A DNA stretch of 64,000 nucleotides, from assembly GCA_015056565.1 (NCBI GenBank), contig SVGB01000003.1, positions 1-64,000 of the forward strand, read 5' to 3'. The notes beneath the pieces are model-generated. The model did not search any database. It had not been told where the DNA came from and saw only the letters and a list, made by a program, of their open reading frames with translations. Positions within the stretch are counted from its first letter, which is position 1. The number at the start of each line of letters is the position of its first letter. A program made the translations under genes and the position numbers. Positions 22,336 through 46,812 of the stretch are shown here, piece after piece. Source of the DNA: Butyrivibrio sp. (GTDB taxonomy: Bacteria; Bacillota; Clostridia; Lachnospirales; Lachnospiraceae).

Positions 22336-23879
22336 AAGTCCTTATAAATAAATTCAGCCGCACTATAGCCTGGACCATATTCAGCCAGCAATATGCAGTA
22401 GAACAAAAATGCTATTATCACTATCCATCTGATGGCAATTCCTTTGGATGCCAGATATTCCCTTATGTTTAAATAGCCCTTGAATCTTGACTCAGAAATA
22501 GTTCCATCAGCACATAATTCCATCCTGTACTGAATAGTGGAAACAACAGCAAGGATCATGAGAGAGACTACCAGAATCCCAATTTCCACAAAATCAAGTC
22601 CAAGATCAAGGATACTTCCGTCAACTAAGATCCAGGGATTAAATGTAGATATGCCCTCGCCCATCATCCTTAACGCATGGGGAACATTGTCTGCTCTAAA
22701 GAACAGATCTCCGATACAAACAAAGAAAAAGGTTCGGATTACACGAAATACATCTGCCCCCTTGCTCTTTAAATTCATATGCATCTTCTCTGCAAAGAGC
22801 CAGGTAAAAAACGGGAGTGTTATCTCCCCCAAAACGATGTATGCCCAGTGAAGAAGGCCTGATCCGATGACATACTTCATCTCACCGCCGTGCCACATAC
22901 CTACTGAGAACCACAGAATAAACATTGCGACGTAAGTGGTGTACTGCTTACCTTTCTTTTTACCGAGCTTACTCTTAAGCGCCTTGCCAAGTCCAGTGAT
23001 CATCTTAGTTCTAAGAAGCGGGTAAAAAACATTTTCTCTCATCCACACACCAAGTGTGATATGCCATCTGCGCCAGTATTCGCTGATGTTTTTTGCAAAA
23101 AAAGGAGTCCTGAAATTTTCAGGAAGCACTATTCCAAAGGTCTCAGAAATACCAATCACTATGTCCATACATCCGGAGAAGTTGGTGTAGAGCTGAAGTG
23201 CAAAGCACACTGTTCCAATCCAGATAAAGGTTCCAGGATATGCTGTGTCGTTGTTGTAGATTGTATTTACAATAACTGCAAGTCTCTCAGAAATAACCAA
23301 TTCCTTGAAAAATCCCCAGAGCATCCTCAAAAGACCAAAGGTAAGATTTTTGTAATCCAGCCTGTGTCTTTCAAAGAACTGATCTCCCATTTCCCTCACC
23401 TGGAATATGGGTCCCGATATCATAACAGGAAAGTACATGCCATAAAGAGCTGTCTTTAAAAAGCTCTTATTGGCAGAACTTAGGCCGTTGTAAACTTCAA
23501 TAAAGTATCCAAGAAGAATAAAGGTATAAAAAGACAGTCCCAACGGCGCCAATATAGCCCCATTGTGAATAAGCTTTGTGTACTTAAAAGCAATCAGTAT
23601 TCCAAGAAGAGTTACAAGCTCAAGGATCAGCAGTATCCGCCTTGTTCTCACGTTTTCTTCTTTTGTTTTTGAAAGGATCTTAAGGAGTCCCCATGTGATA
23701 AATGAAGATATTATGGGGTAGATCATCAGCACCTTGTTTCCGGATAACAGATAATAGGCCATACTCGCCAAAAGGAGTACGACCCACTGACCGCGCCCCT
23801 TTGTCAAAACAGGGAGCGCGTAATATATGATCAAAACCAGTGCAAAAAAGCACAAAAAGCTAAAGGATGTAACACTCAT
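22332..23879 (-). CDS. MBOAT-family O-acyltransferase (AlgI/DltB-like)
   Basis: A 515-residue polytopic membrane protein. LGLSFYTFILLGYFIEVY (about 113-130), ISEYWRRWHITLGVWMRENVF (about 265-285) and VGMWHGG with the invariant His at residue 330 identify the MBOAT family, which moves an acyl group across the membrane onto a polysaccharide or teichoic acid. Upstream genes encode an AsnB, a carrier protein and an FkbH-like enzyme, so the acyl donor may be a carrier-bound group rather than acetyl-CoA; that is inference. It overlaps the upstream asnB stop by one base and the SGNH-like gene by four. Confidence 0.88.
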   Translation of the reverse strand: MSVTSFSFLCFFALVLIIYYALPVLTKGRGQWVVLLLASMAYYLLSGNKVLMIYPIISSFITWGLLKILSKTKEENVRTRRILLILELVTLLGILIAFKYTKLIHNGAILAPLGLSFYTFILLGYFIEVYNGLSSANKSFLKTALYGMYFPVMISGPIFQVREMGDQFFERHRLDYKNLTFGLLRMLWGFFKELVISERLAVIVNTIYNNDTAYPGTFIWIGTVCFALQLYTNFSGCMDIVIGISETFGIVLPENFRTPFFAKNISEYWRRWHITLGVWMRENVFYPLLRTKMITGLGKALKSKLGKKKGKQYTTYVAMFILWFSVGMWHGGEMKYVIGSGLLHWAYIVLGEITLPFFTWLFAEKMHMNLKSKGADVFRVIRTFFFVCIGDLFFRADNVPHALRMMGEGISTFNPWILVDGSILDLGLDFVEIGILVVSLMILAVVSTIQYRMELCADGTISESRFKGYLNIREYLASKGIAIRWIVIIAFLFYCILLAEYGPGYSAAEFIYKDF

Positions 23880-25762
23880 TAAAACTCTTCCTCATACCAC
23901 TGCTGGAACATCAGAATGTACCATATCTGCACTCTGTAGATTCCCCTTGTAGTAAAGTCTGTCCATATCTTATGAACAACATCGGCATCAAGAATACCCT
24001 GCTGCCTTATCTTGTCTCTATCTAAAAGCCCCTCAGCCCACTGCCTTAAGTCGCTGTCAAGGAGCCATTTACTTATTGGAATAGAAAACCCTTTCTTTGG
24101 GCGTTCCATCATTTCTCTAGGCACATAACGGTATAATACATCTCTGAGTATCTTTTTGCCAGTCTTGTCATCCCTTAGATAGTTGATGGGAAGACTAAAA
24201 GCAAAGTCCACAACATCTTTATCAAGCATTGGAACTCTGGTCTCAAGAGATACCGCCATGGCTGTTCTGTCCACTTTAACAAGAATATCTTCCGGATGAT
24301 ATAATAGCATATCCATGAGCATGGCCTCGTGGTTGACCTCTCCAAGAAAATCCTTTGGAATATCCATGCACTTATATCTGGCAGCGCCGTCTTTAATCGC
24401 GATCTTTTTGATCAACGGATCCGTCTCATGTTCAAACTTGTGAAGTTCATAGGGAGATCCTGCTCCCATATATTTTGCCTTAAGATACTTTACCTCTTTT
24501 CGAGGATCTCCAGTTATATCACTTCCAATAGATAATAGCTGGGCGCTACTTATGGCTTTCCTGATGGGATAAGGGATCTTACTTATCTTATTCCATACTC
24601 TGCTGACAGATCTGTAGGAATTATATCCGCAAAAGAGCTCATCTCCGCCGTCACCTGAAAGAGATACAGTGACATGATCTCTTGTCATTTTGCTTACCAG
24701 ATATGTGGGGATCTGGGATGAATCCGCAAAGGGCTCACCAAACATAAACGGAAGTTTCGGGATCACCGCCTTAGCATCATCCTCTGTGATATACAGCTCC
24801 GTGTGGTCAGTCCCAAGGTGCCTGGCAATCTCTTTTGCATAAACAGCCTCATTGTACCTGTCATCATTCATACCGATAGTGAAGGTACGGACCTTGCCAG
24901 GAGCTATCTTCTGCATGAGGGATACGATAGTGGAGCTGTCAATTCCCGCAGAAAGGAATGCTCCAAGAGGAACATCTGCCACCATCTGACCTTTTATTGA
25001 CTCAGTAAGGAGCCTTTCAAGCTCAAGTGAAGCTTCCTCAAAGCTCCCCTTGAACCTGTCATGCTGCCCTCTGTAAGCAACATCCTTTAGAGAATAGTAT
25101 GTGGTCTGCACTGTCTCCAGGCTGTCAACATTAACAGTAAGGTACTTGCCGGGTTCTAATTTGTAGATGTCATTGTAGATTGAATATGGGGATGGAATAT
25201 AGCCATCCTCAAAGTATATATCCAGCACATCAGTATTTATGCCATTATCAAAGCCGTCAAGCACCCTGATGCAGCCTATGTCAGATGCAAATACGAAGGC
25301 CCCGTTTACTATTCCGTAGTATAAAGGTTTCTCGCCGATCCTGTCTCGAGCAAGGGTAACTGTTCTTTTCTCTTTATCATAAATAGCGAACCCAAACATT
25401 CCCTTGATCTTATCAAGAGCAACGTCTATTCCATACTTCTCAATTGCTTCAACTAGAACTTCAGTGTCGGAACTGCTGCGAAAAGAGATCTCTTTTTCAA
25501 GATCTTTTTTTAGCTCTGCAGCATTGTAAATCTCGCCGTTATACACCATTACATTTCTGCCTGATGCTGACACAAACGGCTGTGCACCGTTCTTAGAAAG
25601 ATCCACAATAGAAAGGCGCCTGTGACCAAGCGCCACTTGACAATCTTCACTTATATAAATGCCACCGTCGTCAGGGCCTCTGTGGAGCATTCTCTCATTC
25701 ATCTTCTGAATGTTACCCCGCAAGTCACCCTTAAACTTCAAAAGTCCTGCGATTCCGCACAT
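23879..25762 (-). CDS. Glutamine-dependent asparagine synthase-like amidotransferase (AsnB family), copy 1
   Basis: About 627 residues. Cys2 of MCGIAG is the glutaminase nucleophile, so the start is ATG 25762, not the TTG at 25906; AAAGGG lies seven bases upstream. RRLSIVDLS, NGEIYN and the ATP-pyrophosphatase loop LSAGIDSSTIV follow. AsnB proteins in O-antigen loci (for example Francisella WbtH, Pseudomonas WbpS) amidate uronic acids, and the TviB/TviC-like pair here supplies such a substrate. It shares a divergent upstream region with fkbH and a second AsnB lies 4 kb away. Ordinary asparagine synthesis cannot be excluded. Confidence 0.88.
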   Translation of the reverse strand: MCGIAGLLKFKGDLRGNIQKMNERMLHRGPDDGGIYISEDCQVALGHRRLSIVDLSKNGAQPFVSASGRNVMVYNGEIYNAAELKKDLEKEISFRSSSDTEVLVEAIEKYGIDVALDKIKGMFGFAIYDKEKRTVTLARDRIGEKPLYYGIVNGAFVFASDIGCIRVLDGFDNGINTDVLDIYFEDGYIPSPYSIYNDIYKLEPGKYLTVNVDSLETVQTTYYSLKDVAYRGQHDRFKGSFEEASLELERLLTESIKGQMVADVPLGAFLSAGIDSSTIVSLMQKIAPGKVRTFTIGMNDDRYNEAVYAKEIARHLGTDHTELYITEDDAKAVIPKLPFMFGEPFADSSQIPTYLVSKMTRDHVTVSLSGDGGDELFCGYNSYRSVSRVWNKISKIPYPIRKAISSAQLLSIGSDITGDPRKEVKYLKAKYMGAGSPYELHKFEHETDPLIKKIAIKDGAARYKCMDIPKDFLGEVNHEAMLMDMLLYHPEDILVKVDRTAMAVSLETRVPMLDKDVVDFAFSLPINYLRDDKTGKKILRDVLYRYVPREMMERPKKGFSIPISKWLLDSDLRQWAEGLLDRDKIRQQGILDADVVHKIWTDFTTRGIYRVQIWYILMFQQWYEEEF

Positions 25763-25805
25763 AATATCCCTTTCATGCCTCAAAATGCGGGCCCAATTCA
25801 TATGA

Positions 25806-25833
25806 ATTATATCATTTTCTATGGTATAAACAA
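25806..25833 (-). promoter_or_regulatory. SigmaA promoter for the asnB-MBOAT-SGNH genes
   Basis: On the minus strand, TTGTTT (25833-25828), a 16-base spacer and a perfect TATAAT (25811-25806) lie about 45 bases before the AsnB start. It is in the divergent gap shared with the plus-strand fkbH-like gene. Confidence 0.55.
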
Positions 25834-25905
25834 ACAAGAATGAAAATATGATATGATGGAACAGACTTAAGAATTCTTTAAAAACACTACATTTCGGAGA
25901 TAACA

Positions 25906-27699
25906 ATGAAAGAACTGGAATACCCTTTTGATAGTAACTACATAATGAAAAAAGCCCGCAGCATTAAGAAGGCTCTTTTATCAGATGGAAGTGATCGCAT
26001 CCACAAAAAGATCGCTGTTCTTGGAGGTTCCACCACCCACGATATAATAAAGGTGTTGGAGCTCTTTTTGTTAAACTATGGTATTGAGCCTGAGTTTTAT
26101 GAATCAGAGTATGGTCAGTACTGGCAAGATGCCATGTTCGGGCAGGAGCTTTCCCAGTTTGCTCCAGATATCATCTTTATCCACACCAGTAACCGCAATA
26201 TTACTGATTATCCCACCATGGACGACGATGCATCCTCTGTGGAAAGTAAGCTTGATAAGACCTATGAGCACTTTGAGACTATGTGGAAAAAGCTTATTGA
26301 CACCTACCACTGCCCCATCATCCAGAACAATTTCGAAGCGCCTTTCTACAGGCTCATGGGAAACAGAGACTTCTTTGATATTCATGGAAGACTTTCATTT
26401 ATAAACAGATTAAATGAGAGATTTGCTCAGTTTGCAAGGAAAGCAGCTGATGATTCAGTCAGCTTTTTTATCAACGATATAAACTACCTTTCAAGCTGCT
26501 ACGGCCTTGATGAGTGGTCAGATCCACTTACCTGGCACATGTACAAGTATGCCCTTTGCATCCCTGCAATTCCCTCACTTAGCTTTAACGTTGCCAACAT
26601 TATCAAGTCCATATATGGCAAAAACAAAAAGGGGCTAGTCCTTGATCTTGATAACACATTGTGGGGCGGAGTTGTTGGTGATGACGGAGTTGACGGGATC
26701 GAGATCGGTCAGGAAACAAACCTTGGACAAGTATACTCAGAATTCCAGAGCTATGTGAAAATGCAAAAGGACATCGGTGTACTTCTTACAATCGATTCCA
26801 AAAACGAGGAAGAGAATGCCATGGCAGGTCTTTCACATCCGGACGGAATCCTTAAGCCCGATGACTTTGTGGCAATAAGAGCCAACTGGGAACCAAAGAG
26901 CGAGAACCTTAAGTCCATAGCAAAAGAGCTTAACATCCTTCCTGACTCACTGGTATTTGTGGATGACAATCCCGCAGAAAGAGCCATCATCGAGGGTCAG
27001 ATAAAGGGAGCTGCAGTTCCTGAAATAGACAGTCCTGAGCACTATATCAGGATCCTTGACCATTCAGGATTCTTTGAAGCAACTGCCGTTTCTGAAGATG
27101 ACAGAAAAAGAAACGAGATGTATATCGCCAACAAAAAGCGCACACAGGCAGAGGAAAGTTTTGCTGATTATGGTGAGTACCTCACTTCCCTTGAAATGGA
27201 AGCTGAGATATCTCCTTTTGAAAAGCTCTATATTCCTAGGATCGCGCAGCTAACCAACAAGAGCAATCAGTTCAACTTAACTACTAAGCGCTACAGTCCT
27301 GACGACATTGAAAGGGTGGCAGAGGATCCTGACCATATCACTCTCTATGGGCGCTTAAAGGATAAGTTTGGCGATAACGGTATAGTTTCTCTAATTGCTG
27401 GTAGCATAAAAGGCGATGAGCTCCACATTGACCTGTGGCTCATGAGCTGCCGCGTTCTTAAAAGAGATATGGAGTTTGCAATGATGGATGTCCTTCATGC
27501 AAAAGCCCTTGAAAAAGGTATCAAGACCATCTACGGCTACTACTATCCAACAGCCAAGAACAAGATGGTAAAAGATTTCTACACCCTGCAGGGCTTTGAA
27601 AAAATTGCAGAAGATGCTGATGGCAATGCCACCTACAAGTTTGAGATAACTACTGATTACAAGAACAAAAACAGTCATATCAAAGTAACAGTAAAGTAA
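25906..27699 (+). CDS. FkbH-like HAD-IIIC family protein (carrier-protein glyceroyl loading type)
   Basis: A 597-residue protein with the FkbH layout. An N-terminal SGNH-like region starts at AVLGGSTTHDI (37-47). The HAD domain has LDLDNTLWGG at 245-254 and FVDDNPAER near 345, both acid motifs intact. A GNAT-like C-terminal part begins near 475 (FGDNGIVSLIAG). FkbH proteins take the glyceryl group of 1,3-bisphosphoglycerate and load it on an acyl carrier protein. An ACP gene is 1.7 kb away and an MBOAT acyltransferase is on the other side, so a glyceroyl-ACP used for glycan acylation is a reasonable inference. It is the only plus-strand gene in the 59-kb run. GGAG precedes the ATG. Confidence 0.87.
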   Translation: MKELEYPFDSNYIMKKARSIKKALLSDGSDRIHKKIAVLGGSTTHDIIKVLELFLLNYGIEPEFYESEYGQYWQDAMFGQELSQFAPDIIFIHTSNRNITDYPTMDDDASSVESKLDKTYEHFETMWKKLIDTYHCPIIQNNFEAPFYRLMGNRDFFDIHGRLSFINRLNERFAQFARKAADDSVSFFINDINYLSSCYGLDEWSDPLTWHMYKYALCIPAIPSLSFNVANIIKSIYGKNKKGLVLDLDNTLWGGVVGDDGVDGIEIGQETNLGQVYSEFQSYVKMQKDIGVLLTIDSKNEEENAMAGLSHPDGILKPDDFVAIRANWEPKSENLKSIAKELNILPDSLVFVDDNPAERAIIEGQIKGAAVPEIDSPEHYIRILDHSGFFEATAVSEDDRKRNEMYIANKKRTQAEESFADYGEYLTSLEMEAEISPFEKLYIPRIAQLTNKSNQFNLTTKRYSPDDIERVAEDPDHITLYGRLKDKFGDNGIVSLIAGSIKGDELHIDLWLMSCRVLKRDMEFAMMDVLHAKALEKGIKTIYGYYYPTAKNKMVKDFYTLQGFEKIAEDADGNATYKFEITTDYKNKNSHIKVTVK

Positions 27700-29612: not shown

Positions 29613-31556
29613 TTAAATCATGTAATAATTGTACCATTGCTGGAAAATAAAGAACGACCACGCGATCTTACTATAATTCGCTCCTGTAGCGGGACCTCCA
29701 TCTCCGTTTACAACATAGTTGCTGATAAACTTTGAAACATACTCAGGGTCAAATACGCCCTGCTTTTTAAGGAAAGAGGAACTGCTGTAATCGAGAAGCG
29801 CCTCCTTTAAAGGTCCTCTTAGCCACGCGTCCATTGGAACGCCAAAGCCTGTTTTTGGACGTTCAAGCATTTCCTTTGGAATATAGTCATAAGCGATATC
29901 CTTAAGGATATGCTTCTTGTCCTTCTTGCAATATTTGAATCTCTGAGGAATTCTGAAGGAATACTCCATTACCTCAGTATCCATTATAGGACATCTGTTT
30001 TCCAGAGAATATTTCATGGATGCCCTGTCCATCTTCACCAGTATATCCTCTGGAAGATAGGTGTACATATCAAGCAACATCCTCTTAACCTGGAAATCGT
30101 TAGTTGGATAAAGACTCTCCACAGGGTAGAGGATCGGTGCTTCATTTATCGGAAGATTAAAATCTGTACTGATATAATCCAGCGCATTTACAGGCACATC
30201 CAATGTTTCTTTTCCTGTTATAAAAGCATGGGAAGCCCTGACATATCCTTCAGATACCAGCTGTGTCTTGGTTTCAGGGTTTCTGTTTCCAGCAATCACC
30301 TTGACCCTGAATGGCATCTTGTCTATGAGCTTACCTCCGCCTAATGGCATCTGACCAATTGCGTTAACAATAGCGCCTGGAATTTCCAGCCTCTGTGCCT
30401 GCCATACATTATCATATATATTATATCCGCAAAAGAACTCGTCTCCTCCATCTCCTGAAAGAGCAACAGTGACATCTTTCTTTGCCAGCTTACTTACCAG
30501 CATTGACGGAATCTCTGAGTTGTCTGCAAAGGGTTCGTCGTAGTACTGTGGAATGCTTGCCACAAGATCGAACATCTCTTTTTCAGTGATATAAAGCTCT
30601 GTGTGGTCACACCCAAGATATTTTGCTATCTCTTTTGCATACTCAGCCTCATTGTAGCTTGGAACGTCAAAACCTATGCAGAAAGTCTTCACAGGCTCAT
30701 CAGACAGTTCCTGAGCAATAGCTGTAACGAGAGATGAATCGTATCCGCCAGATAAAAATGTCCCCAGGGGCACATCTGCGATCATACGGGCAGCCACACT
30801 GTTTTTTAGCCTTATCTTAAGACCTTCCTTGGCCTCTTCGTAACTGTTTACAGGGTCCTTAGACTTTTCTTTATAAACTTCCTTGATGTCCCAGTATTTC
30901 CATTTTTTTATCTCACCATCCTTAAACTTAAGGACTGAACCAGCCTCCAACTTGTAAACATCGGTAAATATCGTCTCCGGAGCACTTATATACTGATTAA
31001 AAAGATATCTTGGAAGGATCTGTCTCCTGATCTCGCCCCTAAATCCTGGACACTTAAGGATTGGCTTAAGTTCCGAAGCAAAAACAAGATTCCCTCCATC
31101 CAGCCAGTAAAACAAAGGCTTCTTGCCGATGCGGTCACGGATAAGGAATATCTCATCAGTTTCTCTGTCATACAGGGCGATAGCAAACATTCCGTGGATG
31201 TGGTCCACCATGTCTATACCCCATTTAAGATAAGCTGCTATAAGTACCTCGGTGTCACATGCAGTCTTAAACTGATAGTCTGATATCTCCTCCTTGAGCT
31301 CAAGGAAGTTGTAGATTTCACCATTAAACACCAATGAGATCCTGCCATTTTCAGAGTGCATGGGCTGATGTCCCAAGGGCGAAAGGTCAAGTATTGCCAG
31401 CCTTCTTTGGGCAAGCCCCACATAGTAATCATTAGCTCCAGCGTAGATCTCAACGCCTGCATCATCAGGTCCTCTGTGGTACATGGTGTCATTCATGATG
31501 CTAAGCTGTTCTTCTGTTATTCTTTTTTTAGATATGTATCCGCAGATTCCGCACAT
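29613..31556 (-). CDS. AsnB-family glutamine amidotransferase, copy 2
   Basis: A 647-residue protein with Cys2 (MCGICGY), QRRLAILDLSP, FNGEIYNFLE and the ATP loop FLSGGYDSSLV, then RASMKYSLENRCP late in the synthetase half. It is complete and aligned with copy 1 over its full length but clearly distinct. Two AsnB copies in one glycan locus, with UDP-GalNAcA-type genes nearby, argue for amidation of two different uronic acid positions or of another carboxylate. It is followed after 12 bases by the ACP gene. Confidence 0.88.
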   Translation of the reverse strand: MCGICGYISKKRITEEQLSIMNDTMYHRGPDDAGVEIYAGANDYYVGLAQRRLAILDLSPLGHQPMHSENGRISLVFNGEIYNFLELKEEISDYQFKTACDTEVLIAAYLKWGIDMVDHIHGMFAIALYDRETDEIFLIRDRIGKKPLFYWLDGGNLVFASELKPILKCPGFRGEIRRQILPRYLFNQYISAPETIFTDVYKLEAGSVLKFKDGEIKKWKYWDIKEVYKEKSKDPVNSYEEAKEGLKIRLKNSVAARMIADVPLGTFLSGGYDSSLVTAIAQELSDEPVKTFCIGFDVPSYNEAEYAKEIAKYLGCDHTELYITEKEMFDLVASIPQYYDEPFADNSEIPSMLVSKLAKKDVTVALSGDGGDEFFCGYNIYDNVWQAQRLEIPGAIVNAIGQMPLGGGKLIDKMPFRVKVIAGNRNPETKTQLVSEGYVRASHAFITGKETLDVPVNALDYISTDFNLPINEAPILYPVESLYPTNDFQVKRMLLDMYTYLPEDILVKMDRASMKYSLENRCPIMDTEVMEYSFRIPQRFKYCKKDKKHILKDIAYDYIPKEMLERPKTGFGVPMDAWLRGPLKEALLDYSSSSFLKKQGVFDPEYVSKFISNYVVNGDGGPATGANYSKIAWSFFIFQQWYNYYMI

Positions 31557-38865: not shown

Positions 38866-40182
38866 TCATAAGCGCCAGTAGTCGAATTCTGGAGCCTTGT
38901 AGTCGTTCATATCATAGATTCCCTTGATATCCATGAAGACCTTTGTCTTGTGTGAAGGATTGAAGAACTTAGCAATGTCAGCTGGCTTGTAATCCTTGAA
39001 GTCCTCATGTGCAACAGCCATGATCACAGCATCCATATCCTTGACAGAATCCATAGGATCAAACTCAATGCCATAGAGACGCTTAGCTTCATCTGAATCT
39101 GCCTGAGGGTCTACAACTACGGGTGTGATTCCATACTCCTTAAGCTCGTTGTAGATGTCGATAACCTTGGTGTTACGTGTATCCGGGCAGTTCTCCTTGA
39201 AGGTAAAGCCAAGAATAGCTACCTTTGCATTCTTTACAGGAATGTCGTTGGCAATAAGGCGCTTAACCAGTGATTCTGCAATATATTTGCCCATGTCGTC
39301 GTTGATGCGGCGGCCTGAAAGAATGATCTGTGAGTGATAACCAAGCTCCTCTGCCTTGTAGGTTAAGTAGTAAGGGTCAACGCCGATGCAGTGTCCACCA
39401 ACAAGACCAGGGAAGAACTTAAGGAAGTTCCACTTGGTGCCTGCTGCCTCAAGAACGCTCTTGGTGTCGATCCCCATCCTGTGGAAGATCATGGAAAGCT
39501 CGTTCATGAAAGCGATGTTGATATCACGCTGTGAGTTCTCGATAACCTTAGCTGCCTCAGCGACCTTGATGGACTGAGCCTTGTATACACCTGCAAGAGC
39601 AACCAGGCTGTAAACCTTAGCTACTGTATCAAGTGTCTCTTCATCCATACCAGATACGATCTTGGTGATGGTATCAAGTCTGTGAACCTTGTCACCTGGG
39701 TTGATACGCTCTGGTGAGTAACCTACCTTGAAGTCTACACCGCACTTAAGGCCTGACTCCTGCTCCAGGATTGGCACGCAGATATCTTCTGTAACTCCAG
39801 GATATACTGTTGACTCATATACAACGATTGAACCCTTTGTAAGGTACTTACCAAGTGTGTGGCTTGCTCCCTCAACAGGTGAAAGATCTGGTGTGTGATC
39901 ATCATTAACAGGTGTTGGAACAGCTACTACGTGGAACTTGCACTCACGGAGCTTTTCAGGGTCAGCTGTGAATTCTACAGTTGTCTCCTTGATAGCATCA
40001 TTACCAACTTCTCTTGTTGGGTCGATACCTTTTTTGTAAAGCTCAACCTTCTGAGCATTGAAATCGTAGCCCACTACCTTGATCTTCTTGGCATAAGCTA
40101 CTGCTATAGGCATTCCTACATAACCAAGTCCTACCAGTGAAAGTTTCTCTTCTCCAGCAAGGAGCTTCTCGTAAAGATCCAT
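38866..40182 (-). CDS. tviB-like: Nucleotide-sugar dehydrogenase, UDP-GlcNAc 6-dehydrogenase type (TviB/WbpO)
   Basis: A 438-residue UDP-sugar dehydrogenase that makes a UDP-uronic acid with two NAD+. SLVGLGYVGMP binds NAD, GYSPERINPGD is the conserved middle motif, and VGGHCIGVDPYYL at 261-273 carries the catalytic Cys265. The shape of these motifs and the adjacent epimerase favour UDP-GlcNAc to UDP-GlcNAcA (TviB/WbpO/WbpA) over UDP-glucose dehydrogenase. A strong GGAGG precedes the ATG. The product could be amidated by the AsnB copies downstream. Confidence 0.86.
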   Translation of the reverse strand: MDLYEKLLAGEEKLSLVGLGYVGMPIAVAYAKKIKVVGYDFNAQKVELYKKGIDPTREVGNDAIKETTVEFTADPEKLRECKFHVVAVPTPVNDDHTPDLSPVEGASHTLGKYLTKGSIVVYESTVYPGVTEDICVPILEQESGLKCGVDFKVGYSPERINPGDKVHRLDTITKIVSGMDEETLDTVAKVYSLVALAGVYKAQSIKVAEAAKVIENSQRDINIAFMNELSMIFHRMGIDTKSVLEAAGTKWNFLKFFPGLVGGHCIGVDPYYLTYKAEELGYHSQIILSGRRINDDMGKYIAESLVKRLIANDIPVKNAKVAILGFTFKENCPDTRNTKVIDIYNELKEYGITPVVVDPQADSDEAKRLYGIEFDPMDSVKDMDAVIMAVAHEDFKDYKPADIAKFFNPSHKTKVFMDIKGIYDMNDYKAPEFDYWRL

Positions 40183-40199: not shown

Positions 40200-41300
40200 T
40201 TATTTGATAATCTGTTTTATCTCATTAATATACGTCAATATTATACTACGCCTGTCAAACTTCTGCTCGACGTGCCTTCGTGCGGCTTTTCCCATCTCTC
40301 TTCTGTGCTCCGTGTCCATTTCCATGAACCGGGAAAGGGCTTTTGTCAGAGCATCGAGGTTTTTGGGTTCGAACAGGATTCCGGATACTCCGTCCTCAAC
40401 AATCTCCTTGCATCCACTGATGTTTGATGCTATAACCGGCCTTGCTGTGGCCGAGGCTTCCATGAGGACATTGGACATACCCTCGTGGTAAGAGGGATGA
40501 ACTATGGCATCCGCCTCCCTTATATAGGGATGAATATCCTGTGCAAAAGGTATCATCTTGAAGTAGTGGGCTTTCTCTGCCTCTTTTACACGCAACTCAT
40601 AATCATCGTCAAAGTATCCTGCAGCGGCAAAAGACACTTTCCCGGGATATTTGCTGCTGATGATGCGCGCAGCTTCCAGGTATTCATCCATACCTTTTTC
40701 CTTCATGATCCTGCCGATGTAAAGAAACCTTGTTATATCATCCTTATGCCCCGGATAATCCTCCGGATAATGCTTTTGTAGATTGACGCCGCTTCCGTTT
40801 ACGGTGATATGCTTCCTTGCCCTGATACCGCAGTTTTCAAATTTCTTTCGGTTCTCTTCATTCTGGAAAAAGAGACATCTGCAGTCCTTAAGTGCAACCT
40901 TGTACAGAGTAACTATGAGCTTTAAAAGGATCCCTCCGCGCTCAAATGTAGTGCCAAGTCCGGTAACTGTTGAAATATATGGCACCTTCAGTCTCCTGCA
41001 GGCGAATCCTCCGTAAATATTGGGCTTTATTGTATAGGTCAGCACAATGTCCGGCTGCTCTTTTTTGATAAGGGCTTTATAAGCACGGAAAAGAGCCATA
41101 TCCTGAATCGGATTGACTCCTCTTCTGTTTATTTCAGTATAAACGATACGAAATCCCTCGTTCTTCAGCTCTTTTATCTTGAGCTCATCGGGAAGACTGA
41201 TGACAACCTCGTACCCTTCATCCCTAAGGCCTGTCAGGATCTCATTCCTGAAGTCATAGAGTCCCGCGGAAGAATTGGCAAGAATCAGAGCCTTTTTCAT
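40200..41300 (-). CDS. GT4 family glycosyltransferase (PglA/CapM-like)
   Basis: A 366-residue GT-B transferase. ANSSAGLYDFRNEILTGLRDEG and LTYTIKPNIYGG near 105 are features of the PglA/CapM-like group that adds HexNAc or 6-deoxy sugars as the second residue on undecaprenyl-linked glycans. HPSYHEGMSNVLMEASATARP supplies E-x7-E. Its place right after the PglC-like and ATP-grasp genes fits the second step of assembly. It overlaps the ATP-grasp gene by four bases. Confidence 0.84.
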   Translation of the reverse strand: MKKALILANSSAGLYDFRNEILTGLRDEGYEVVISLPDELKIKELKNEGFRIVYTEINRRGVNPIQDMALFRAYKALIKKEQPDIVLTYTIKPNIYGGFACRRLKVPYISTVTGLGTTFERGGILLKLIVTLYKVALKDCRCLFFQNEENRKKFENCGIRARKHITVNGSGVNLQKHYPEDYPGHKDDITRFLYIGRIMKEKGMDEYLEAARIISSKYPGKVSFAAAGYFDDDYELRVKEAEKAHYFKMIPFAQDIHPYIREADAIVHPSYHEGMSNVLMEASATARPVIASNISGCKEIVEDGVSGILFEPKNLDALTKALSRFMEMDTEHRREMGKAARRHVEQKFDRRSIILTYINEIKQIIK

Positions 41301-42937
41301 AATTCCTCCTTAGAAGCCACAGCTTTTGTCTTGCGATCGCAGAGCATCTCGTAAACCTCTGAATGATCGCATGTATCAAAGAACATGGACTCTTCCTCGG
41401 TATAATAGAGTCCGTCAGGATTCTTAACACAAAGGCACTTCATGCCAAGCTGCATAGGTGCAGCAAAGTCCTTGGTCATATTGTCTCCGACATAAATGAT
41501 CTCTTCAGCCGGAAGCCTGAATCTGGTCTGCATGATGCGGAAAGCGATATCGCAGGGCTTTCTGAACGGTATTCCTCCAAGCTCATCGGTGATGATGATG
41601 TCATCTGCCATCTCTCTAAGCCCCAGAGCATCAATCTTGTTGTTCTGTCCGGCAGGTCTTCCGTCGGTGATGATGCCAATCTTTATGCCCCTCATCCTTA
41701 AGGTTTCAAGGGCTTTCTTCATTTCGGGATAGAGGGAGATATCCGGCTTGTGACTTCTGTATACATCAAGAGCGCTCTCTTTATCAGTCATCCTTCCGAT
41801 CTCAGACAGCAATGTGTCAATGGCAGGCTGTCCCTCTTCAAAGAGCTCATAAAGCCTGTCGGCATAAGCATCGTCGCCGAGGTGTTTTGCCACTGCCTTG
41901 TAGCCGCTCCTTACATAGTCTTTCTCGGGGTAAAGTGTATCATCAAGGTCAAAGATCACAGCCTTAACGCACCCGGTGCCTTCGCTCAGGCACACAGATT
42001 CATCAAAGCGGCTGTAAATTGCACTGTCTGAAATGGCAGTGCTTCGATGTGCCGCCTCGCCATCAAGGATCTCCAGCACATATTCTGCACTTCTTGCTCC
42101 CGCCTTCATGGACAGTGGAGCACCTCCGCCGTATCTGGGGTTGATCTCTATAAAATAATCTTTTCCGGTCTTTTCATCTCTTATAAGCTGGACCGTTATC
42201 GGCCCTCTTGGTCTGAACTTCTCACAGATTACCTCTGCTTCTTTTATCATGGTCTCATCCATGAATATCTGAGTCTTTAAAACTTCTCCTGCTCTTACCT
42301 GAATACGCTCTCTGGGCACAATGGAAATCGGTCTTCCGTCAAAGTCGCAGAAAACATCAATGGTGTACTCTCTTCCCGATACAAAGGGCTGAATGATGTA
42401 ATCTTCAACCTGACGGGCATACATCTCAAGGTCCTGCGCGTTTTCCACTTTGAAGGCATTGATGGAACTGCTGCCATCCTTGGGCTTTATAAATGCAGGA
42501 AAGCCGCCTTTATACGCTGCCACGTCATTGACCGGCATCGGAGCCAAAAGGCCGCACTCTACAAAGAAGCTTGAAGTGTTATTCTTGTCACGACAGATCC
42601 TTATCTTGTCCGGATCGGATATGAGAACCTTAGTGCCGATTGCCTCAAATTTCTCACGATTCTCAGACAGGACCAGAAGATCCGTGTCAATTGTGGGTAT
42701 AAGCAGCGTGATCTCATCCTTTTTACATATATCCAGAAGATTATCTATGTATCCGGGATCTTTCATGGCAACCACTCTTCTTGCAAAATTGCAATAAGCA
42801 AGAGCGGGAGCGGTCCCCGCCATATCTGCCCCGTAAATCTTAAGTTTTTTGTCAAGGACCAGTGCAGCATTCCTGAATGCCTGCAGAAGCTCTATCCTGC
42901 GGCCTACACCGGTAAAGAGAATTCTAATTTCGCTCAT
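41297..42937 (-). CDS. ATP-grasp ligase fused to a HAD phosphatase domain
   Basis: A protein of about 546 residues with two domains. Residues 1-300 are a PylC/CarB-like ATP-grasp enzyme: FIKPKDGSSS near 151-160, QPFVSGREYTIDVF and the metal/ATP acids FIEINPRYGGG at 264-274. Residues about 325-520 are a HAD phosphatase with VIFDLDDTLYPE at 329-340, TDGRPAGQ and GDNMTKDF. ATP-grasp enzymes join a carboxylate to an amine through an acyl phosphate, so it may acylate an amino sugar. It sits where PglD would be in a bacillosamine operon. The start is taken at 42937, six bases after AAGGG. Confidence 0.78.
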   Translation of the reverse strand: MSEIRILFTGVGRRIELLQAFRNAALVLDKKLKIYGADMAGTAPALAYCNFARRVVAMKDPGYIDNLLDICKKDEITLLIPTIDTDLLVLSENREKFEAIGTKVLISDPDKIRICRDKNNTSSFFVECGLLAPMPVNDVAAYKGGFPAFIKPKDGSSSINAFKVENAQDLEMYARQVEDYIIQPFVSGREYTIDVFCDFDGRPISIVPRERIQVRAGEVLKTQIFMDETMIKEAEVICEKFRPRGPITVQLIRDEKTGKDYFIEINPRYGGGAPLSMKAGARSAEYVLEILDGEAAHRSTAISDSAIYSRFDESVCLSEGTGCVKAVIFDLDDTLYPEKDYVRSGYKAVAKHLGDDAYADRLYELFEEGQPAIDTLLSEIGRMTDKESALDVYRSHKPDISLYPEMKKALETLRMRGIKIGIITDGRPAGQNNKIDALGLREMADDIIITDELGGIPFRKPCDIAFRIMQTRFRLPAEEIIYVGDNMTKDFAAPMQLGMKCLCVKNPDGLYYTEEESMFFDTCDHSEVYEMLCDRKTKAVASKEEL

Positions 42938-42963
42938 ATTCATCCCTTGTATTATTTCTGTTA

Positions 42964-43626
42964 TTACTGCTCCTTATCGGATGCATCAGAGGACTCACTT
43001 CCCATGAATTCCTCCATGGTTGCTGAGGTGCCCGAACTGATGCCCTTGTGGCCAAGGACCACTCCGACTGTGGCAAAGAGGATTTTCAGATCCTCTAAAA
43101 ATGTGATGTTATCAACATACTTTACATCCCAGTCAAACTTCTCTTCCCAGGATATGGAATTGCGGCCGTTCACCTGAGCCAGTCCCGTAAAGCCCGGCCT
43201 TACCTCATGTCGCCTCTTCTGATGCTCGTTGTATCTCGGAAGGTATCTGACAAGAAGCGGCCTTGGACCTACAATTGCCATATCTCCCTTTATGATGTTG
43301 ATAAGCTCGGGAAGTTCATCAATACTGGTGCTTCTGAGTTTCTTTCCAAATCCCGTGAGCCTGTCCTCATCAGGAAGAAGGTTTCCGTCCGCATCTTTTT
43401 CATCTGTCATGGTGCGGAACTTGTACAGGTTAAAGACCTTCTCATTCCTGCCGGGTCTTGGCTGTTTAAACAGCACCGGACTTCCGAGTTTTACTCTCAC
43501 CAAAAGCGCTGTTATTAGCATAACGGGGCTTAGAACCAGCAGCCCGACAAGCGAAAGGACAAAGTCCAGGAATCTCTTTATGAACTTTTCGTAGGGTCCT
43601 TTATAAGCGTGTTTCACTGAAAGCAT
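42964..43626 (-). CDS. pglC-like: PglC-like initiating phosphoglycosyl transferase
   Basis: A 220-residue monotopic membrane enzyme that transfers a sugar-1-phosphate from UDP-sugar to undecaprenyl phosphate, the first committed step of glycan assembly. Basic residues lead into the re-entrant helix FVLSLVGLLVLSPVML (22-37). KFRTM at 69-73, SIDELPE with the Asp103-Glu104 dyad, GPRPLL and RPGFTGLAQVNGR are all present. It lacks the N-terminal spans of WbaP. The PglE and PglF partners upstream suggest a diamino- or amino-trideoxyhexose phosphate. It overlaps the aminotransferase gene by 13 bases. Confidence 0.9.
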   Translation of the reverse strand: MLSVKHAYKGPYEKFIKRFLDFVLSLVGLLVLSPVMLITALLVRVKLGSPVLFKQPRPGRNEKVFNLYKFRTMTDEKDADGNLLPDEDRLTGFGKKLRSTSIDELPELINIIKGDMAIVGPRPLLVRYLPRYNEHQKRRHEVRPGFTGLAQVNGRNSISWEEKFDWDVKYVDNITFLEDLKILFATVGVVLGHKGISSGTSATMEEFMGSESSDASDKEQ

Positions 43627-44885
43627 CTCTTTACTATCTCAATGATCACATCCTGCTGCTCAGGCGTCATCTTGTTATCACTTGGAAGGCAAAGGCCTCT
43701 TTCAAAGATATCCATGCCTACATCAAGGATAGTTCCTTCATCAATATAGGCATTGCTTCTTGCTCTTCCGTTGCCCTGCTCTGTGATGAAAGGATTTGAG
43801 CGATAAATGGGCTGCATATGCATTGGTTTCCAGATGGGTCTTCCCTCTGCATTAAGAGCTGTTATAGCCTCAAGGATCTCTGTGGGGCAGCTCTTACCTG
43901 GCTCGGACACATATAAAACGTCTTTCTCACCCCTTACCTGTTTACACATTGCGTCCTTATCTATGATCAGGCATGAAAGCCAGAAGTTAGGCTCTGATTT
44001 CTTTTCGTCAAATGGATTCATTGAAACAGGAAGGTCTTTAAATCCCTCCTTGTACCTGTTGTAGATAGCTTTTTTCTGAGCAATGTGCTCTTCAAGATGC
44101 GGAAGCTGTCCTCTTACAACACCTGCTATGACGTTACTCATTCTGTAGTTGTAGCCAAGTTCCTCGTGCTGGTACCAGGGCGCATCTTCCCTGCTCTGGG
44201 TTGACCACTTCCTGATCTTGTCAGCATCCTCAAGGGACTGTGTCAGCAGCATTCCTCCTGCTGATCCAGTGATGATCTTATTTCCGTTAAAAGAGATAAC
44301 TCCTACATCTCCAAAAAGACCAGTCTGCTTTCCTTCGTAGGTGGCGCCAAAAGACTCAGCAGCATCCTCTACGATAAGGGCTCCGTGCTTGTCACAGATC
44401 TGCCTTATCTCGCCGATCTTGCCTGGAGTTCCGTAAAGGTGTGCAACCACAACCATCTTTACTTCAGGGTAGATCTCAAAGGCTTTCTCAAGGGCCTTGG
44501 GACTCATGTTCCAGGTATCAGCCTCAGTATCGATAAATACAGCTTCACCGCCCTCATAGGCAACAGGATTAACAGTTGCGTCAAAGGTCATGTCAGAGCA
44601 GAATACCTTTTTCCCTTCAAGGACGCCGTGGCTTGCCTTTGGCTGACCGTATAGCTTTTCACCTGCAAGCTTGATGGCAAGATGAAGAGCTGCTGTTCCT
44701 GAAGAAAGAGCTACTGCTGCCTTGCATCCGATCTTTTCTGCAACCATTTTCTCGGATTCATTTATATTTTTTCCAATCGTTGACATCCAGTTGGTGTCAT
44801 AGGCCTCCTGGATGTATTTGATCTCCTCACCGTGCATAGTTGGTGATGAAAGGTAAAGCTTTGTCTCAAAAGGTTTAATTTCCAT
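43614..44885 (-). CDS. pglE-like: PglE-like DegT/DnrJ PLP-dependent sugar aminotransferase
   Basis: A 423-residue class V sugar aminotransferase of the DegT/DnrJ/EryC1 family. YLSSPTMHGEEIKYIQEAYDT at the start, ALSSGTAALHLAIKLAG for the phosphate site, IVEDAAESFGATYEG, and FNGNKIITGSAGG with the PLP lysine are all present. With PglF it should convert UDP-4-keto-6-deoxy-GlcNAc to the UDP-4-amino sugar, using glutamate. The order PglF-PglE-(ATP-grasp)-PglC matches the bacillosamine pathway except for the missing acetyltransferase. It overlaps both neighbours. Confidence 0.9.
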   Translation of the reverse strand: MEIKPFETKLYLSSPTMHGEEIKYIQEAYDTNWMSTIGKNINESEKMVAEKIGCKAAVALSSGTAALHLAIKLAGEKLYGQPKASHGVLEGKKVFCSDMTFDATVNPVAYEGGEAVFIDTEADTWNMSPKALEKAFEIYPEVKMVVVAHLYGTPGKIGEIRQICDKHGALIVEDAAESFGATYEGKQTGLFGDVGVISFNGNKIITGSAGGMLLTQSLEDADKIRKWSTQSREDAPWYQHEELGYNYRMSNVIAGVVRGQLPHLEEHIAQKKAIYNRYKEGFKDLPVSMNPFDEKKSEPNFWLSCLIIDKDAMCKQVRGEKDVLYVSEPGKSCPTEILEAITALNAEGRPIWKPMHMQPIYRSNPFITEQGNGRARSNAYIDEGTILDVGMDIFERGLCLPSDNKMTPEQQDVIIEIVKRCFQ

Positions 44886-46812
44886 TGATATCCTCCGCGG
44901 TCTTCTGAAGGGCCTCTCTTCTCTCTCTTGTCATTGTGTATCTGTGAACATCAGGATGATAGGTTTCAACGATCTCTTTTACCATATCCCGGATCTTGGG
45001 AGATTCCTCTTTTGCAGCCTCATTTAGCTTTTCAAGCTGTGAAAAGAATCTCATCTCATCCATCTCTATTGGCTTACCTATGTGGATCATCTTGTTGGCT
45101 GTATCCTGAAGTCCCTCCTCGTCCATGAGCATCTCCTCATAGAGCTTCTCTCCAGGGCGAAGGCCTGTAAATTCAATCCTTATGTCCTCGCCAACCTTGT
45201 AGCCGGAAAGCTTTATAAGGTTCTCTGCCAGATCAAGGATCTTAACCGGTTCTCCCATATCAAGGACAAATATCTCTCCGCCCTTTGCAAAGGCTCCAGC
45301 CTGAAGCACCAGGGATACGGCTTCAGATATGGTCATAAAGTATCTGATGATGTTAGGGTCTGTTACCGTAACAGGTCCTCCGGCAGCTATCTGCTTTTTG
45401 AAAAGAGGTATAACTGAGCCGTTGGATCCTAGAACGTTACCAAATCTTACAGCCACAAACTCTGTGTCATAGTGCTTGTTAAAGGTCTGGATGATCATCT
45501 CACAGATCCTCTTGCTGGCTCCCATGATGTTTGTGGGATTAACAGCCTTGTCTGTGGATATCATTACAAACTTCTTGCAGCCATTGGTTGCAGCTGCCAT
45601 AGCGGTCTTCCAGGTACCAAATACGTTGTTCTTGATAGCTTCGTTAGGGCTGTCCTCCATAAGAGGTACATGCTTGTGAGCTGCCGCATGATAGACAATA
45701 TCTGGCTTGTATTTTTCAAAGATATTGTTGATGCGGACTGTATTTCTAACTGATGCGATCAGCACCACAAGGTCCATATCAGGGTACTTGTACTTAAGCT
45801 CCTGCTGGATCTCATAGGCGTTGTTTTCATAAATATCAACAATTATAAGGCGCTTTGGGTTGTGGCCTGCGACCTGTCTGCAAAGCTCAGAACCTATGGA
45901 TCCGCCGCCACCTGTTACAAGTATGGTCTTGCCACTTACGTACCCTGCAATGGAATCCAGATCTACAGTTATTGGATCTCTTCCAAGAAGATCCTCAACC
46001 TCCACGTCGCGAAGACGGGATACGTTTACTTCGCCATTTACAAGCTGATACATCCCGGGAAGAGAACGAAGCTTGCAGTTTGTGTTCTTACAGATATCAA
46101 GGATCTTTTTCAGTTCCTGCCTTGACACAGATGGGATTGCAACTATGATCTCATCTATATCATAAAGATCTGCGCACTCTACTATCTTGTCTCTTCCGCC
46201 AACTACGCGGATACCCTGAATATATTTGCCCCACTTGTTGGTATCATCGTCGATGATGCACTTAACAGACATAGTGGAGTAATTACTGGTGATAATATCC
46301 TTGATGATGATGTTGGCAGCCTCTCCGGCACCGATCACCATCACTGCCTTGCTGTTATTCTTGTTTACAGCCTGATTCTTTTTACTCCTGAAAAACCTGT
46401 AGGAGAATCTGCTGACAAAAATAGCTGTTATCAGGATAAAGGTGTACAGGAAATAATAGCTCTGGGGTACAGCCTGCTCATAGAATTTAAAGAACTGAAG
46501 TCCTATGGCATTGATGACACCAGAGATAACACAGGCCATAACGAGATTTTGCATCTCCCGCTCTCCTGCGTAGGCCCAGAGGCTGTCATATAGCTTAAAC
46601 AGGTAAAACACAATGAGAGTCACAATTATATTGATTGGGAGAAACGCTATTATGGAATCCAGATAGTAATCCGGAACGTTTCTGATCACAAACTCATATC
46701 TCATAAGGATTGCCACAAAGCTGGCCGCCACGATACTTACCACATCGTAGAAAATGAGTCCTGTTCTTCTATATAGTTTTGCAAAGTTAAATGGTTCTTT
46801 TTTCTTATTCAT
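44875..46812 (-). CDS. pglF-like: PglF/FlaA1/CapD-like UDP-GlcNAc 4,6-dehydratase
   Basis: A 645-residue inner-membrane protein. Four membrane spans occupy residues about 15-150. A nucleotide-binding CoA-like domain (MVIGAGEAANIIIKDI) follows, then the catalytic SDR domain with LVTGGGGSIGSELCRQ near 295 and the ISTDKAVNPTNIMGASKR active-site region near 425. These features mark the long membrane-bound UDP-GlcNAc C4,C6-dehydratases that start bacillosamine or FucNAc-type synthesis. Paired with the PglE-like gene it should make the UDP-4-amino precursor. It overlaps the polymerase gene by eight bases. Confidence 0.9.
   Translation of the reverse strand: MNKKKEPFNFAKLYRRTGLIFYDVVSIVAASFVAILMRYEFVIRNVPDYYLDSIIAFLPINIIVTLIVFYLFKLYDSLWAYAGEREMQNLVMACVISGVINAIGLQFFKFYEQAVPQSYYFLYTFILITAIFVSRFSYRFFRSKKNQAVNKNNSKAVMVIGAGEAANIIIKDIITSNYSTMSVKCIIDDDTNKWGKYIQGIRVVGGRDKIVECADLYDIDEIIVAIPSVSRQELKKILDICKNTNCKLRSLPGMYQLVNGEVNVSRLRDVEVEDLLGRDPITVDLDSIAGYVSGKTILVTGGGGSIGSELCRQVAGHNPKRLIIVDIYENNAYEIQQELKYKYPDMDLVVLIASVRNTVRINNIFEKYKPDIVYHAAAHKHVPLMEDSPNEAIKNNVFGTWKTAMAAATNGCKKFVMISTDKAVNPTNIMGASKRICEMIIQTFNKHYDTEFVAVRFGNVLGSNGSVIPLFKKQIAAGGPVTVTDPNIIRYFMTISEAVSLVLQAGAFAKGGEIFVLDMGEPVKILDLAENLIKLSGYKVGEDIRIEFTGLRPGEKLYEEMLMDEEGLQDTANKMIHIGKPIEMDEMRFFSQLEKLNEAAKEESPKIRDMVKEIVETYHPDVHRYTMTRERREALQKTAEDINGN

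Follow-up and report, generated by a model that had tools for sequence, protein, structure and literature searches.

The locus and its fusion protein

The stretch of DNA that we analyzed, hereafter the window, comprises 64,000 nucleotides from a Butyrivibrio sp. (contig SVGB01000003.1) and holds an operon in which PglF-, PglE-, and PglC-like genes, in that order, lie directly upstream of a gene that joins an ATP-grasp domain to a haloacid dehalogenase (HAD) domain (AG-HAD) (Table 1). An original prediction, made from the sequence alone, had named these three genes and their order, and profile and PDB matches bear it out. The best PDB relative of the PglC-like protein, 8e37, is an N,N'-diacetylbacillosaminyl-1-phosphate transferase, and we take both structures closest to the PglE-like protein, 1o61 and 4ztc, to be C. 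jejuni PglE (the label given to 4ztc is aminotransferase homolog).

Table 1. Features of the AG-HAD operon in the window
Feature	Position	Strand	Description
TviB-like UDP-sugar C6 dehydrogenase (UDPDH)	38866..40182	-	Conserved flank, outside the exchanged cassette
GT4 glycosyltransferase (GT4a)	40200..41300	-	Profile match; downstream of AG-HAD, with which it co-varies
ATP-grasp-HAD fusion (AG-HAD), ORF	41297..42943	-	548 aa; intact
HAD-IA phosphatase half	41420..41968	-	Residues 326-508; D332xD334, T426, K462, G486-D487-N488...D492
PylC-like N-terminal and ATP-grasp half	41990..42943	-	Residues 1-318; closest structure 2pn1
PglC-like monotopic phosphoglycosyl transferase	42964..43626	-	220 aa; Bac_transf; best PDB match C. 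concisus PglC 8e37, E 6e-74
PglE-like DegT aminotransferase	43614..44885	-	423 aa; best PDB match 1o61/4ztc, E 2e-65
PglF-like UDP-GlcNAc 4,6-dehydratase	44875..46812	-	645 aa; Polysacc_synt_2, 407 bits

AG-HAD is a single-copy gene (one genome match), and its probable start is the second ATG, at 42937 as in the original prediction (546 aa), where an AAGGG ribosome site six bases before is better spaced. The Pfam models that score above cut-off (PF21360, PF02655, PF15632, and PF13419) place PylC-like_N (PF21360) at residues 8-107 (84.9 bits), ATP-grasp_3 at residues 117-273, and HAD_2 at residues 329-506. The first half has the PreATP-grasp and ATP-grasp domains, the ATP-binding lysines, and the Mg-binding E/N that define an ATP-grasp ligase, and the second carries the DxDx(T/V), T/S, K, and GDxxxD motifs of an HAD-IA phosphatase. 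Across 49 fused relatives, K120, K153, E266, N268, and R270 of the ATP-grasp half are invariant, as are D332, D334, K462, and D492 of the HAD half, where conservation of T426 and D487 reaches 90% or more; the predicted two-domain protein with intact motifs in both halves is thus confirmed. The ATP-grasp half also carries five invariant arginines that are specific to the family: R118, R217, and R312, which are mostly F, T, and M in the HAD-less family, and R211 and R213, which stand where the HAD-less type has K.

The AlphaFold2 model of AG-HAD has a mean pLDDT of 91.9. The solved structure nearest to its ATP-grasp half (TM 0.87 over 2pn1) is 2pn1, a functionally unassigned 'carbamoylphosphate synthase large subunit', and its other structural neighbors include the L-amino acid ligase 3vot and PylC 4ffl. 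The N-terminal 318 residues match the PRK12767 'carbamoyl phosphate synthase-like' ATP-grasp family along their full length, but AG-HAD has a HAD domain added, its score lies below the cut-off of all five PRK12767 models (269.9 bits, against the 390 set as curated equivalog score for the best model), and the family name denotes no tested function. A Pfam profile search of the protein found no left-handed beta-helix or PglD_N domain. In one relative (L036:8108-10117) a repeated unit rich in Ala, Thr, and Glu (GAEATEAAASGNAANT) enlarges the linker between the two domains.

ATP-grasp enzymes in the PglD slot

The PglD/NeuD/EpsM acetyltransferases (TIGR03570) occupy the same slot after PglC and share the presumed acceptor amine of AG-HAD, but they are left-handed beta-helix proteins with acetyl-CoA as donor and a fold unrelated to that of AG-HAD. 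As had been predicted, the operon contains no PglD. Nor was one found elsewhere: the genome has no TIGR03570 match above cut-off (the best reaches 52 bits and covers positions 153-202 only) and no match to PglD_N, an absence that is strong, not absolute, because the genome is 87% complete.

Sampling that begins with ATP-grasps is biased, so we centered it on PglE and drew genomes in an even spread across the order and the class, which yielded 44 PglE-PglC loci. Of these, 17 had PglD only, another 17 had only an ATP-grasp, 1 had both enzymes, and 9 had neither, a distribution with a one-sided Fisher P of 5.6e-5 (7.9e-4 when three distant, hand-assigned ATP-grasps are left out) under thresholds chosen after the data had been seen and with genomes that are not fully independent. 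Among operons of matching layout, the slot is filled by PglD, by AG-HAD, by a stand-alone ATP-grasp (often with a pyridoxal phosphate [PLP] enzyme), or by nothing; locus L244, for instance, reads PglE-PglC-PglD-GT4a-UDPDH, an order that L239 and the window repeat except that AG-HAD stands in the place of PglD. A HAD of the AG-HAD type adjoins 6 of the 7 ATP-grasps of that type in the PglE-centered loci, none of the 8 of the other type, and none of the 18 PglD genes.

The proposal that AG-HAD replaces PglD is supported by the shared slot, the company of PglE and PglC, and the near exclusion of PglD, but five of 80 AG-HAD loci (L116, L134, L143, L152, and L154) carry a genuine PglD as well (TIGR03570, 189 to 232 bits), directly before AG-HAD at a distance of 34 to 109 bp and with both genes close to PglE. 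The replacement is therefore not strict.

Distribution of the AG-HAD family

A scan of GTDB genomes retrieved these 80 relatives of AG-HAD, of which 58 are fused, 19 consist of AG and HAD as neighboring genes, and two have no adjacent HAD. Viral contigs yielded no relative of AG-HAD, and the matches in phages were to the HAD alone. In AG-centered counts over 71 usable loci, 61 have PglC at no more than 3 kb and 53 have PglE at no more than 5 kb, and in 57 of 78 loci PglC is no farther than 60 bp from AG. The fusion is thus far from equally common away from sugar aminotransferases, since only 6 of 59 well-flanked AG-HAD loci are without a PglC or PglE neighbor on the same strand. Two of these 6 still have PglC at another place in the locus, and the other 4 have neither gene; L173, among housekeeping genes, is one of the 4 and an example of the few copies outside polysaccharide loci.

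The same counts bear on whether the sugar could be the acid rather than the amine, with the ATP-grasp amidating a UDP-uronic acid supplied by the downstream TviB/TviC-like genes. UDPDH and epimerase genes do lie within 4 kb downstream in the window. A UDPDH resembling that of the window, however, is found in only 9 of 74 AG-HAD loci, in contrast to the frequency of PglE, a similar UDPDH also follows PglD in L244, and the sequence of UDPDH does not co-vary with that of AG (r = 0.17). These neighborhood counts make uronic acid amidation by AG-HAD very improbable.

Plasmids of Priestia, Ensifer, Rhizobium, Palleronia, Roseibium, Segatella, and Phocaeicola carry AG and HAD as a pair of separate genes, in contrast to the single ORF of the window. 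The order in Priestia is PglF-PglE-PglC-AG-HAD-GT4, with 42% (AG) and 35% (HAD) identity to the halves of the window protein. Such pairs suggest that the fusion is probably a union, derived in Clostridia, of two older partner genes.

Occupants of the slot in Butyrivibrio and companions of the stand-alone ATP-grasps

The run OligA-PglF-PglE-PglC-x-GT4-UDPDH recurs in many Butyrivibrio genomes, and PglE is found in 39 of the 41 genomes of the genus. Position x is usually held by a stand-alone ATP-grasp of ~330 aa that is only ~30% identical to the one in the window. The AG-HAD fusion fills it in the window genome and in G009, G063, G008, and G015, the last with AG-HAD beside a PglC-GT4 fusion, and in G014 (L090) the position is empty. 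PglE lies outside the AG-HAD operon in G008 and G015. Because the slot is mostly held by an ATP-grasp without HAD across the genus, the HAD fusion belongs, as one variant, to a broader class. An acyltransferase-like gene beside PglE in G008 was set aside, as it turned out to be a relative of gamma-carbonic anhydrase. PglC and GT4 also share a single ORF of 577 to 610 aa that adjoins the AG-HAD gene at L038:8227-9960 and in L162 and L166.

The stand-alone ATP-grasps have companions of their own. In several genomes they are preceded by a PLP enzyme resembling D-cysteate sulfo-lyase or D-cysteine desulfhydrase, which lies between PglC and the ATP-grasp at L044:8194-9138, L060:10829-11770, and L192:10794-11753 (the best NCBIfam match in L044 and L060, D-cysteate sulfo-lyase, is below cut-off) and hints that the acyl donor there is an unusual amino acid. 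At L201:7756-9252 a GNAT domain is fused to the same kind of PLP enzyme, again between PglC and an ATP-grasp, and L229 has GNAT, PLP enzyme, and ATP-grasp one after the other, each as a gene of its own. At L202:11310-13688 a distant ATP-grasp directly follows PglE-PglC and is itself followed by an opine (octopine) dehydrogenase, so that an opine-decorated amino sugar is possible. These neighbors point to amino acids or opines as the acids used by the other ATP-grasp types, which the amino acid envisaged in the original prediction may fit better.

PglC, AG, and GT4a as an exchangeable cassette

Over 27 complete loci, the sequence distances of AG correlate with those of PglC (r = 0.75) and GT4a (r = 0.64), and the coefficient is 0.22 for PglE; when PglF and UDPDH are controlled for, the partial coefficients are 0.76, 0.65, and 0.13, respectively. 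At L046 and L060 the PglF, PglE, and UDPDH flanks are 86 to 98% identical to those of the window, against ~60% for PglC and ~31% for AG. From these correlations and this pattern of identity we conclude that PglC, AG, and the next glycosyltransferase are exchanged together, as would be expected if AG alters the sugar that PglC and GT4a must then recognize. Adjacency alone would also help to produce such co-exchange, yet PglE, although just as close a neighbor of PglC, does not show the pattern.

Co-exchange also helps in weighing whether the missing PglD needs any substitute at all. In the B. fragilis WcfS pathway the phosphoglycosyl transferase (PGT) takes the free 4-amino sugar; if PglC did likewise here, AG-HAD would modify something else. 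The PglF-PglE-PglC-GT4 run of G014, which has neither PglD nor AG, and the 9 PglE-PglC loci without either enzyme would fit such a pathway. AG, however, tracks the sequences of the very enzymes that must recognize a modified sugar, and it nearly excludes PglD, so we regard a free amino sugar as the substrate of PglC as quite unlikely.

A precedent in Neisseria

Neisseria already offers a case in which an ATP-grasp takes the place of a PglD-type acetyltransferase. There, diNAcBac is the product of PglB, a PGT-acetyltransferase, whereas PglB2, described as an 'ATP grasp/phosphorglycosyl-transferase', makes a glyceramido-acetamido-trideoxyhexose (GATDH); the pglB and pglB2 alleles are mutually exclusive, and a pglB2-ORF8 fragment has been named (PMC11130364). 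N. oralis makes GATDH (4-glyceramido-2-acetamido-trideoxyhexose), the C-terminal domain of PglB2 has been proposed to put the glyceramide on C4, and a HAD hydrolase from N. oralis is drawn in the figure of pgl organization (PMC6959607). In N. meningitidis, pglB2 is followed by a conserved hypothetical gene (PMC3338715).

The loci described here share several features with this system: an ATP-grasp stands in the place of the acetyltransferase, accompanied by a PglC-type PGT, an aminotransferase, and a dehydratase, as gene order and near mutual exclusion with PglD indicate, and the HAD hydrolase gene reported for the pgl cluster of GATDH-making N. oralis parallels the HAD half of AG-HAD. We liken the two ATP-grasps by description and gene context, and the fusions differ, since the ATP-grasp is fused to the PGT in Neisseria but to the HAD in the window, where the PGT is a separate gene. 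Shewanella oneidensis SfmE, an ATP-grasp_4 protein whose deletion alters flagellin glycan mass, is likewise similar by description as an ATP-grasp in a glycan pathway, but it belongs to a nonulosonic acid route, and no HAD is reported in its operon (PMC3765264). As far as the literature we searched shows, the HAD fusion, the spread in Clostridia, the class-level near mutual exclusion with PglD, and the cassette behavior are new; the search found no paper combining bacillosamine with ATP-grasp and none that brought together four of ATP-grasp, haloacid dehalogenase, sugar transferase, aminotransferase, and Butyrivibrio.

A proposed route to an acylated amino sugar

Taken together, the exchange of enzymes in the slot, the company of PglE and PglC, the exclusion of PglD, and the Neisseria precedent support well the core of the original prediction, namely, that a carboxylate is joined to the UDP-4-amino sugar. 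On these sequence data, we consider it quite probable that AG-HAD N-acylates the PglE product in the stead of PglD. Counting against this are the five loci with a PglD next to AG-HAD, the two relatives that have no adjacent HAD, the place of PglE outside the operon in G008 and G015, and the few copies away from polysaccharide loci. The pathway would begin with the conversion of UDP-GlcNAc by PglF and PglE to UDP-2-acetamido-4-amino-2,4,6-trideoxy-glucose. The ATP-grasp half, judging by its family, would then convert a carboxylic acid to its acyl phosphate and link the acyl group as an amide to the 4-amino group of the sugar. The Neisseria precedent and the near-constant HAD partner suggest that this acid most likely bears a phosphate, with 3-phosphoglycerate favored as the simplest source of a glyceramide; the HAD half would strip off the phosphate and leave a glyceramido (or seryl) group. 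PglC would transfer the acylated sugar to undecaprenyl phosphate, and the GT4 encoded by the next gene would extend it.

The identity of the acid is where the original prediction may need revision, since an amino acid, as first proposed, now appears less likely than a phosphorylated acid such as phosphoglycerate. With an amino acid on the same acceptor, the HAD half would be a phosphoserine-type phosphatase or act on another phosphate. The frequent PLP enzyme before the other ATP-grasp type, once fused to GNAT, the opine dehydrogenase beside a further ATP-grasp, and the L-amino acid ligase and PylC among the structural neighbors of AG-HAD all speak for this alternative. In the loci examined, however, those companion genes are found by the stand-alone types and not by AG-HAD, the HAD is restricted to the AG-HAD type, and the Neisseria product is a glyceramide; we therefore judge an amino acid unlikely, if a serious contender. 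Five family-specific arginines (R118, R217, and R312, and R211 and R213 in place of K) would agree with a phosphorylated acid and lend it slight support. That the acyl group is glyceric acid in particular, by analogy with Neisseria, is a tentative assignment to which we give a little under an even chance. Overall, the best explanation, and in our view a likely one, is that AG-HAD completes the sugar with which a surface polysaccharide starts, acylating it with a phosphorylated acid that is then dephosphorylated.

More broadly, and as a possibility that we put forward with some reserve, ATP-grasps may provide Clostridia with a second general means, approximately as common as PglD, of acylating the amino sugars that PglE makes. 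Exchangeable cassettes, in which an ATP-grasp with a HAD, a PLP enzyme, a GNAT, or an opine dehydrogenase moves with PglC and the first glycosyltransferase, would set the acid at the reducing end, AG-HAD being the version that uses a phosphorylated acid and removes the phosphate with its fused domain. If so, many gut and rumen Clostridia would put acids other than acetate on the sugar that starts their surface polysaccharides, and the annotations 'diNAcBac' and 'carbamoyl phosphate synthase-like' would be wrong for these bacteria. A large enzyme family without assigned function would gain a testable set of substrates, there would be a candidate explanation for the HAD gene that Neisseria pgl clusters are reported to contain, and rare amino sugars would become accessible by a new chemoenzymatic route.

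Other genes of the window merit mention. An FkbH-domain protein is encoded at 25906-27699 on the forward strand (TIGR01686, 295 bits); characterized members of the FkbH family make glyceryl-ACP from 1,3-bisphosphoglycerate, and this protein may be a further source of three-carbon acyl groups within the window. Two asparagine-synthase-like amidotransferases lie within the polysaccharide locus, at 23879-25906 and 29613-31556.
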